From positions 1 to 34,360 of IMG/VR virus record IMGVR_UViG_3300042905_001989: 34,360 nucleotides of DNA; one strand, 5' to 3'. The DNA comes from a virus. Positions 12,322 to 15,822 of this stretch are shown in pieces. The translations under genes and the position numbers were made by a program. How positions within the stretch are numbered: the first letter of the stretch is position 1; every line of letters starts with the position of its first letter. The notes below the pieces were generated by a model. The model was not told the DNA's origin and did not search any database. It was given only the letters and a program-made list of their open reading frames with translations.

Positions 12322-12578
12322 AAGTCCGAGAGACCATTTTTGCAAACGGTTAATTTCGGGCATGATACAATTTCAGTCGTATTTTCGGCTGCGATTGCAA
12401 AGGTCGGAGACGACAGTAAAGTTCTTTTAACCGCAAACCAAATGCGAAACAATCAGAGGGGGAAATCCGAATAGTTATAGGGCGAAAGTACGCTGATAGC
12501 TAATACCAAGTTAGCGAGGTTTCAAAGTTGGGTGTAACTTTCACGACACTTGGAAATTGTCTTTGCGGTTAAAAATTT
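12322..12578 (+). ncRNA. Highly structured noncoding segment
   Basis: No plausible gene lies here, but base pairing is dense. TTTGCAA (12339-12345) pairs with TTGCAAA (12395-12401), extended by GACC/GGTC, enclosing the hairpin CAGTCG/CGGCTG (12374-12391). TTTTAACCGCAAA (12425-12437) pairs perfectly with TTTGCGGTTAAAA (12562-12574). That stem encloses AGTTAT/ATAGCT (12473-12501) with inner GGCG/CGCT, and CCAAGT/ACTTGG (12506-12553) with inner AAAGTT/AACTTT. CGGTTAA at 12347-12353 could compete for the same partner. With the downstream modules it forms a unit of about 650 nt ended by a terminator. It resembles large ornate phage RNAs in size and position only; family not established. Confidence 0.6.
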
Positions 12579-12758: not shown

Positions 12759-12914
12759 GGTCAAGTGGCGGAATTGTTTGGCGTTGGGATAAAAACTGAG
12801 GCCTGAGACATTGGTAGACGCACACAGTATTAATAAACAAAGAAGTGATTTATATAGGCGTAAATATAAAGAAACAGTTATATAAATACAGGTTCAAATC
12901 CTGTCTTGACCGCA
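12759..12914 (+). ncRNA. tRNA-Leu-like element B (aberrant)
   Basis: The acceptor GGTCAAG (12759-12765) pairs perfectly with CTTGACC (12905-12911). The T-arm ACAGG-TTCAAAT-CCTGT (12888-12904) is canonical. The D-arm can be read as GCGGAATTG...GTAGACGC, with about 35 extra bases in the loop bounded by ATTG repeats. A hairpin TTTATAT/ATATAAA lies where a long variable arm would be. No proper anticodon arm can be drawn. The ends are close to element A, so the two are diverged copies. Preserved ends with an expanded middle suggest selection on the tRNA-like shape rather than decoding. Confidence 0.55.
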
Positions 12915-12999: not shown

Positions 13000-13197
13000 A
13001 TGGACAATATCAAATTAACATCAGTAGTTCCACAGGAACAAAACACTATCTCTTTTGTGCAAGATAATGCTGGAAGAGAAATTTTAAAACTTTGTGAAAA
13101 TGGAGATATTTTCGTAAAAGGTAAACTTGCAGAAAATGACAAAGAAGTTGTTGATGCTTTAAGAGAATTTCTCAAAGGACAAGGTTTCCTAAAATAG
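13000..13197 (+). CDS. Unknown small protein
   Basis: This encodes 65 residues. The C-terminal two thirds (EILKLCENGDIFVKGKLAENDKEVVDALREFLK) read like a small conserved phage/Bacteroidota domain of unknown function. The leader AAACAAAAAACAAAA is typical here. It begins 25 bp after the strong terminator, and no promoter consensus is visible between them. It ends just before the first attC-like site and could itself be a cassette gene, though its upstream boundary is not clear. Confidence 0.7.
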   Translation: MDNIKLTSVVPQEQNTISFVQDNAGREILKLCENGDIFVKGKLAENDKEVVDALREFLKGQGFLK

Positions 13198-13198
13198 C

Positions 13199-13333
13199 AT
13201 ATAACGCCCGATGGCTTTGTGTCCGTTTGGGAATTTGAAATACAAAACTTTAAAATTATTACAAATGCAAAATAAAGAACAAAAAGACGAATTAAGCACA
13301 TCAGCCCAAATGGCACAAAACCATTTGTTGTGC
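13199..13333. repeat. attC-like recombination site 1
   Basis: R''-like ATATAAC (13199-13205) opens the site and R'-like GTTGTGC (13327-13333) closes it. Inside, L'' at 13213-13231 pairs with L' at 13305-13322: 16 Watson-Crick pairs, one G-T, one mismatch and one unpaired T at 13222, similar to the extrahelical bases of attC sites. The segment AGCACATCAGCCC (13295-13307) recurs exactly in site 2. Its outer arms do not pair well with each other, as expected when R'' and R' come from different cassettes. Confidence 0.6.
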
Positions 13334-13474
13334 GATGTTAATGATGAAGATGATTTTGAAGATGAAGAAAGCACTCCACCCGACTATTATGTGTGTATGT
13401 GTTGTGGCAACGTTCAAAGTCATTCATATAGTTGCAATAAGTGTGCTGGACCAATGTCTGAGTGCTGGTATTAA
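13265..13474 (+). CDS. Zinc-ribbon protein in cassette 1
   Basis: I chose the ATG at 13265, an A-rich context, over a start at 13211. The product has 69 residues. The N-terminal ~20 residues are translated from the attC-like site; an acidic stretch follows (DVNDEDDFEDEE), then a zinc ribbon with cysteines in CMCC and CNKC (PDYYVCMCCGNVQ ... CNKCAGPMSECWY). The cassette itself starts at 13328, so its native start may have been TTG at 13328 or lost; the present ORF may be a fusion through the site. Function unknown. Confidence 0.55.
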   Translation: MQNKEQKDELSTSAQMAQNHLLCDVNDEDDFEDEESTPPDYYVCMCCGNVQSHSYSCNKCAGPMSECWY

Positions 13475-13478
13475 TATC

Positions 13479-13608
13479 GCACAACGGTAAAATATTGGCG
13501 AAGGCAGGGAATTGAAGTACTACTGCTGAATTTCGCATTAAAGTTAAATAAATGTACTTCTATTGGTTTTAGCACATCAGCCCTGCTTTTGCCAATATAA
13601 TGTTGGGC
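13479..13608. repeat. attC-like recombination site 2
   Basis: R'' is GCACAAC (13479-13485) and R' is GTTGGGC (13602-13608), the latter a full match to GTTRRRY. They pair at 6 of 7 positions. The L''/L' stem, ATATTGGCGAAGGCAGGG (13492-13509) with CCCTGCTTTTGCCAATAT (13581-13598), pairs over all 18 positions with two G-T. Spacers between R and L arms are unequal (6 and 3 nt). An inner GAAGTAC/GTACTTC pair lies in the loop. The total of 130 bp is within the usual attC range. Confidence 0.68.
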
Positions 13609-13620
13609 GTAGTTTTTATT

Positions 13621-13947
13621 ATGAACACATTTGAATATGCAATAAATTTCTGTTCTAATTTCCCAGACCAAAATACACCTAAAAATGGTGGTGAATATTA
13701 CTTTGAAAGTTCAAATAATATGTCATTTGCAACGGAAGTTCAAAGCGACTTATTTAAACCTCTTGATTATGGTGCAATATTTTATTTTACAAAATTTCAG
13801 AAGGTTTTGATTGATGGTGTTTATGAAAATAAATATGGTCAATTTGCCGGATATTGGTATAAAAACGGCACATATCGTACTCGCAGAATAGAAGAAGTAA
13901 AAAAACTAAATGACACACAAGTCTTGTCTATTGGGTTGTTGCCTTAA
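13621..13947 (+). CDS. Unknown protein of cassette 2
   Basis: I chose the ATG at 13621 because the earlier in-frame ATG at 13600 lies in the recombination core site. The product has 108 residues, rich in Phe, Tyr and Asn, with no membrane segment and no known motif. It fills the cassette between R' (13602) and R'' (13954), as single cassette genes do. Function unknown; cassette proteins are commonly orphan. Confidence 0.65.
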   Translation: MNTFEYAINFCSNFPDQNTPKNGGEYYFESSNNMSFATEVQSDLFKPLDYGAIFYFTKFQKVLIDGVYENKYGQFAGYWYKNGTYRTRRIEEVKKLNDTQVLSIGLLP

Positions 13948-13981
13948 AATTACGCCCAACAAGCATATTTACGCATAAAAA

Positions 13982-15598: not shown

Positions 15599-15741
15599 AT
15601 GGAGAATCTATTGCCTTTGACGTTTTGGACGATACATACATCACCATGCCAGCACAGGATGGTAACGATGTCACCAGCGGAGGCATATTTTAAATCCTTT
15701 TTGTAGGAAACCTTATCTTCTAAAACTTTGTATTTTTGCAT
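15571..15741 (-). CDS. Lone minus-strand small protein
   Basis: I chose the ATG at 15741; a longer frame from 15861 only adds low-complexity sequence across a hairpin. The product has 56 residues: MQKYKVLEDKVSYKKDLKYA then SAGDIVTILCWHGDVCIVQN, ending RFSIHRDKLSLL. The AGD-V-I---HGDV-IV---G-RFS pattern looks like a small conserved phage beta domain of unknown function. A minus-strand TATATTTG at 15815-15822 could drive it. Confidence 0.6.
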   Translation of the reverse strand: MQKYKVLEDKVSYKKDLKYASAGDIVTILCWHGDVCIVQNVKGNRFSIHRDKLSLL

Positions 15742-15786
15742 AAAAAAACTTGCTATCTTAATTAAAATAGCAAGTATGTTTTTTTT
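15742..15786. terminator. Bidirectional terminator-type hairpin
   Basis: ACTTGCTAT (15748-15756) pairs perfectly with ATAGCAAGT (15767-15775). A T8 run follows on + (15779-15786) and a T7 run on - (15742-15748). It would end the rightward accessory transcript. On the minus strand it lies between the promoter-like element and the start codon at 15741, as an attenuator would. Confidence 0.7.
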
Positions 15787-15814
15787 AACCTTAAAATATA
15801 TAACAATGAAAAGA

Positions 15815-15822
15815 CAAATATA
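15815..15822 (-). promoter_or_regulatory. Minus-strand -7 element TATATTTG
   Basis: On the minus strand the sequence reads TATATTTG, an exact TAnnTTTG match, 73 bp upstream of the minus-strand start codon. No -33 TTTG at normal spacing is seen. Confidence 0.4.

Follow-up and report, generated by a model that had tools for sequence, protein, structure and literature searches.

A 34,360-bp virus record from IMG/VR, referred to here as the window, carries a 755-bp insert (13205 to 13959) that in our judgment is quite probably made up of two minus-strand attC cassettes, placed site-specifically at an attI-like G^TT site by a recombinase acting in trans, most likely one from a phage with a full integron. 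Somewhat less firmly, but still with the balance clearly in favor, we take many phages of Bacteroidota type (host inferred) to carry complete noncanonical integrons with inverted cassette genes and the window to be a satellite insertion from that pool. The observations behind this reading are the structure of the sites, their polarity, the precise empty site in related phages, the association of arrays with a recombinase gene and an attI-like motif, and the lack of an IntI-specific domain in that recombinase.

Both sites in the window are attC-type, far beyond chance. A covariance model (R1), trained on 44 sites from other phages with the record itself excluded, gave full-length matches at exactly two places when both strands were searched: attC site 1 at 13198 to 13334 (matched from 13334 to 13198; 82.6 bits, E=1e-14) and attC site 2 at 13478 to 13609 (matched from 13609 to 13478; 78.2 bits, E=8e-14). 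The third-best match across the 34 kb scored 15.5 bits (E=0.48). A model of a shorter class of phage sites (R2) found no match in the record, and an Rfam scan returned no match to an attC family. R1 had no match in the relatives L002 to L005, which lack the insert, or in 20 further relatives. Sites resembling attC site 2 were found in five phages (L028, L029, L030, L034, and L036) and in a Bacteroidota metagenome-assembled contig (L037).

The two sites follow the attC plan, an imperfect palindrome of the form R''-L''..L'-R' with a G^TT core. A preliminary description of the window had pointed to paired stem arms, a shared repeat, a consensus core and complementarity between the cores of each cassette, and all of these held up. 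The arms of site 2 (13492 to 13509 and 13581 to 13598) pair at 18 of 18 positions, comprising 16 Watson-Crick and 2 G.T pairs, and the 13-mer AGCACATCAGCCC occurs in both sites, at 13295 and 13571. GTTGGGC at 13602 fits the GTTRRRY consensus; GTTGTGC at 13327 and GTTATAT do not fully fit it. The leading core of each cassette is complementary to the cassette's own trailing R'', with 15 of 16 positions matching between 13327 to 13342 and 13470 to 13485, and likewise 15 of 16, 11 of them contiguous, between 13601 to 13616 and 13946 to 13961.

The limits of the insert were set by comparison with relatives (L002 to L007) that we found through a 65-amino-acid phage gene at 13000 to 13197 (plus strand; phrog_16927). 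The locus spanning 13000 to 13205, which consists of this gene followed by the insertion target TAGCATATAAC (GTTATATGC on the minus strand), is conserved in all six. L003 has the two flanks in direct contact, TAGCCTATAAC running into AGGCATATTTACGCATAAAAAA (the junction is also given as TAGCCTATAAC followed by AGGCATATTTACGC), while in the window TAGCATATAAC precedes the insert on the left and GCCCAAC at its right end is followed by AAGCATATTTACGC. The same empty site, exact to the base, was seen in L002, L004, and L005, which supports the earlier proposal of G^TT-type insertion of integron cassettes. Because the two insert ends have nothing in common but the bases AAC, which read GTT on the minus strand, the units are read on that strand, with crossover points at 13959/13960, 13484/13485, and 13204/13205. 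Among isolate phages, the record had only weak, short matches at the DNA level.

Read in this direction, the first unit has the order G^TTGGGCG..ORF2 antisense..CGCCCAAC-attC2-..CCG^, and it is followed by ^TTGTGCG..ORF1 antisense..CGCACAAC-attC1-..GGGCG^TTATATGC and phage DNA. Cassette A (13485 to 13959, minus strand, 475 bp) thus begins with the leading core TTGGGCG and contains ORF2 in antisense, its own R'' (CTACGCCCAAC), and the attC 2 hairpin before ending in ACCG; its boundaries follow from the G^TT rule and the empty site. Cassette B (13205 to 13484, minus strand, 280 bp), bounded from the empty site, begins with TTGTGCG and contains ORF1 in antisense, its own R'' (CATCGCACAAC), and the attC 1 hairpin, ending in GGGCG. 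These limits replace the earlier ones of 13328 to 13602 and 13603 to 13960, which had been drawn with plus polarity; as the polarity is minus, the R'' and R' of that description were swapped. We rejected the plus-strand reading: its right flank lacks the needed G^TT, the start of ORF1 would lie outside its cassette, the array would end without a final core, and R1 matches the minus strand only.

Both cassette genes are oriented against the attC polarity. ORF1 (cassette B, 13310 to 13474, plus strand) likely encodes 54 amino acids from an inferred ATG start at 13310, which places the start codon within the attC of the same cassette and the whole gene within cassette B. The predicted protein is cysteine-rich and by eye resembles a zinc ribbon. 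No Pfam match was found for ORF1; residues 40 to 86 of the longer frame match phrog_31291 (function unknown; E=2.5e-7). ORF2 (cassette A, 13621 to 13947, plus strand; 108 amino acids) had no relative in Pfam, PHROG, or the viral contigs.

Several further features of the record were noted. It carries terminase, portal, major head, and tape-measure genes. An intergenic element, TATAAC-NNN-ATATTTACGCATAAA, recurs behind small genes in L002 (5959 and 6199), L005, and L003, and the insert sits in one copy of it. Between 12578 and 12912 lie two sequences that resemble tRNAs interrupted by large insertions, GGTCAGGTGGCGGAA...TTGACCGCA and GGTCAAGTGGCGGAA...TTGACCGCA, possibly split or intron-bearing phage tRNAs; the stretch from 12759 to 12912 (about 154 nt) matched the Rfam tRNA model with 30.7 bits (cutoff, 29) and was missed by ARAGORN. 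A perfect 13-bp inverted repeat, TTTTAACCGCAAA/TTTGCGGTTAAAA (12425 to 12437 and 12562 to 12574), flanks 124 nt that look structured, and a weak Rfam match to the Bacteroidetes FopS sRNA lies at 15739 to 15815 on the minus strand (32.3 bits, below the cutoff of 56).

As the preliminary description had stated for an integrase, no tyrosine recombinase (PF00589) was found in the 34-kb record; since the record is linear and may be incomplete, a recombinase could lie beyond its ends. With at least two nearby attC sites and no integrase, the insert corresponds to a CALIN in a record that may be partial. The relative L006 holds a different cassette behind the same phage gene and, directly after its second cassette, a gene for a 268-amino-acid tyrosine recombinase. 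There, the homologue of the 13000 to 13197 gene itself sits behind a short attC-like hairpin, and the insertion locus may thus be the remnant of an array.

Relatives of the L006 recombinase are encoded at 171 IMG/VR loci, the best 80 of which were fetched for array analysis. A scan for AAC-hairpin-GTT structures yielded 189 sites in 59 loci, 184 of them 5' of the recombinase gene, compared with 2 in shuffled sequence. After dereplication, a 9-mer from the site core had its reverse complement downstream at 108 of 156 sites, versus 9 of 156 for a control 9-mer, and an alignment of 37 short-class phage sites (A2) showed compensatory change in 13 of 14 pairs. Using R1 and R2, both built solely from phage sites, we found attC sites beside the recombinase gene at 47 of the 48 loci that remained after dereplication and had 1 kb or more of upstream sequence. 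In total, 198 of 201 array sites lie upstream of the gene and all 201 are on the minus strand; because training sites are included in the 201, the test lies in strand and side and not in the bare number. Terminase or head genes were present on several of the array contigs in the subset examined.

Cassette genes in these arrays share the orientation of the recombinase gene (93 of 97, dereplicated) and run against the attC polarity in 60 cases and along it in 8; in arrays of the sampled Bacteroidota chromosomes, 21 genes run along and 2 against. One cassette is common to two phages, with 83% identity, unrelated flanks, and AAC-exact ends on both sides, and it is the one clear case found of transfer between arrays. 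Near-identical recombinase-bearing phages provided few usable pairs for precise gain or loss. Pfam matches among 102 cassette proteins were confined to eight families; two of these are DNA methyltransferase families, and others correspond to a Lar restriction-alleviation protein and an exonuclease. PHROGs added HNH endonuclease and other methyltransferase matches, and methyltransferases were foremost among the PADLOC matches. Judged by these similarities, some cassette genes (methyltransferases and the Lar-like protein) look like counter-defense genes. The phage arrays also contain a third attC class of about 56 nt (L039, 2295 to 2350; L054, 3963 to 4018; and others). In L195 (17251 to 17385) and L196 (5692 to 6115), attC-type sites lie far from the recombinase on contigs where a recombinase array is present as well; these distant sites are secondary insertions like that of the window.

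The motif AACTA[TG]NNTATAT marks the array end next to the recombinase at 38 of 49 loci, in most cases with about 50 bp separating it from the start of the gene; across all 572 kb it occurs 48 times. Its position at the integrase end suggests that this conserved motif is likely attI. When all 1,436 AAC sites of the 34-kb record were scored against a matrix of the phage attI motifs, the insertion target (13203 to 13205) ranked top, a score to which the left flank, with its resemblance to an R box, contributes.

The recombinases themselves differ from IntI. The L006 protein scored below the cutoffs of both NF040815 (172.6 bits; cutoff, 220) and the integron integrase model TIGR02249 (155.4 bits; cutoff, 265). 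Of 51 phage recombinases, 50 showed the catalytic motifs, and the distance from the first catalytic Arg motif to HxLRH is 85 to 87 residues in the 51 proteins, compared with 86 to 96 in Bacteroidota chromosomal relatives, 94 to 100 in XerC/D, and 133 to 134 in canonical IntI. Alignment to VchIntIA (2A3V) showed a stretch of IntI without a counterpart in the phage recombinase; by spacing and model score alike, the IntI-specific domain is absent. A tree of 79 proteins placed IntI in a clade of its own (100/100) and clustered the phage recombinases (83/91) among Bacteroidota recombinases without the insert. The closest recombinases from isolates share 39% and 37% identity. The attC model had no matches in the Ingeline, Freya, and P12002L phages, so these closest isolate recombinases come without demonstrated arrays of this kind. 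IntI is the defining component of integrons, and its specific domain has been described as necessary for integron recombination (PMC9668308). Lacking that domain and falling outside the IntI clade, the recombinase loci look like phage-borne non-IntI integrons: to judge from their sequences, they appear to function like integrons, yet stand outside the IntI-defined family.

In the donor phage integron that we propose, the gene for an Xer/IntI-like tyrosine recombinase lacking the IntI-specific domain would be preceded, at a distance of about 50 bp, by an attI-like site and accompanied by a cassette array. Cassettes excised from such an array would be inserted at attI or attI-like sites, such as the G^TT site behind the small phage gene at 13203 to 13205. 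The phage recombinase would act on attC sites as folded single strands, and for the window it would have been supplied in trans by a coinfecting or resident phage. Inversion of the genes relative to attC would allow them to be read in the direction of the phage, fitting phage transcription. The window thus looks like an integrase-less offshoot of phage integrons.

It was proposed earlier that the phage picked up the cassettes, possibly through a host integrase. The first part stands; a phage enzyme is more likely than one from the host, because the window genes run against attC polarity and the target is like the phage attI motif. A chromosomal Bacteroidota integrase, either a no-insert recombinase or a canonical IntI, might nevertheless have inserted the window cassettes, with the phage arrays being a separate matter; we hold this to be a minority possibility that deserves attention. 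Chromosomal arrays that fit the model lie 3' of related recombinases, the attC site 2 family also occurs in contig L037, and canonical IntI was present in 8 of 24 sampled Bacteroidota genomes with a no-insert recombinase. Since the sites at one canonical IntI locus (L211) also fit the phage-trained model, the enzyme at work could have been a host IntI. Against a chromosomal enzyme speak the gene orientation, which is the rule in phages and rare in chromosomes, and the resemblance of the target to the phage motif.

A further possibility is that the attC sites are genuine, that an ordinary phage integrase lies beside them by chance, and that a standard IntI moves the cassettes. This accords with the definition of integrons by IntI (PMC9668308) and with the ability of IntI1 to use phage attC sites (PMC9892861), but we consider it improbable given that arrays are one-sided at 47 of 48 loci, that the conserved motif keeps a near-fixed distance from the gene, and that in 16 of the 24 sampled genomes with a no-insert recombinase no IntI exceeds the curated cutoff. 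That the hairpins are merely terminators or other structural repeats in an ordinary accessory-gene island seems very improbable. Hairpins and accessory genes are, as general knowledge has it, frequent in phage intergenic regions, and no tool result here favored this idea; core complementarity, compensatory changes, fixed polarity, and exact G^TT boundaries argue against it, and the empty site and the model matches contradict it. If the phage recombinase works as proposed, attC recombination does not need the IntI-specific domain, and phages own a dedicated means to gather and shuffle small genes; viruses, it seems, possess their own counterpart of the system by which antibiotic resistance genes spread in bacteria.

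The window alone adds to a known kind, since CALINs in phages, a Polaribacter phage among them, have been published: Qi et al. 2023 (PMC9892861) describes them in TJE1, P12002L, and PH101 and reports that five of six phage attC sites tested with IntI1 worked. As in the window, the attC cassettes there sit in phage genomes that lack an integrase. They differ in that P12002L gives no match to our attC model and in that the accessible part of that report mentions neither a tie to a phage recombinase family nor reversed cassette genes. In a search of published, mainly open-access papers for viral or non-IntI integrons, that study was the only close one, and none of the papers described phage integrons whose integrase lacks the IntI domain. 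Integrons of this non-IntI kind in phages, with their cassette genes reversed, look like a new variety. IntegronFinder recognizes IntI by its IntI-specific domain (PMC9668308), and with this domain as the search criterion, a non-IntI class would go unnoticed or would register just as CALINs; IntegronFinder 2.0 found very few complete integrons in Bacteroidetes (PMC9024848).

Classical integrons (class 1 and Vibrio) share with the phage loci the attC plan, the G^TT crossover, a leading core complementary to its own R'', and an attI that adjoins the integrase gene, with the array running away from intI; unlike them, the phage loci have recombinases without the IntI-specific domain, outside the IntI clade, and cassette genes against attC polarity. 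Bacteroidota chromosomal arrays, such as that in L037, have a related no-insert recombinase and fit the same attC model, but lie mostly 3' of the gene, often with longer recombinases (345 amino acids or more). The archaeal integrons (PMC9668308) likewise extended integrons to a new kind of carrier, although archaeal IntIs retain the IntI-specific domain.
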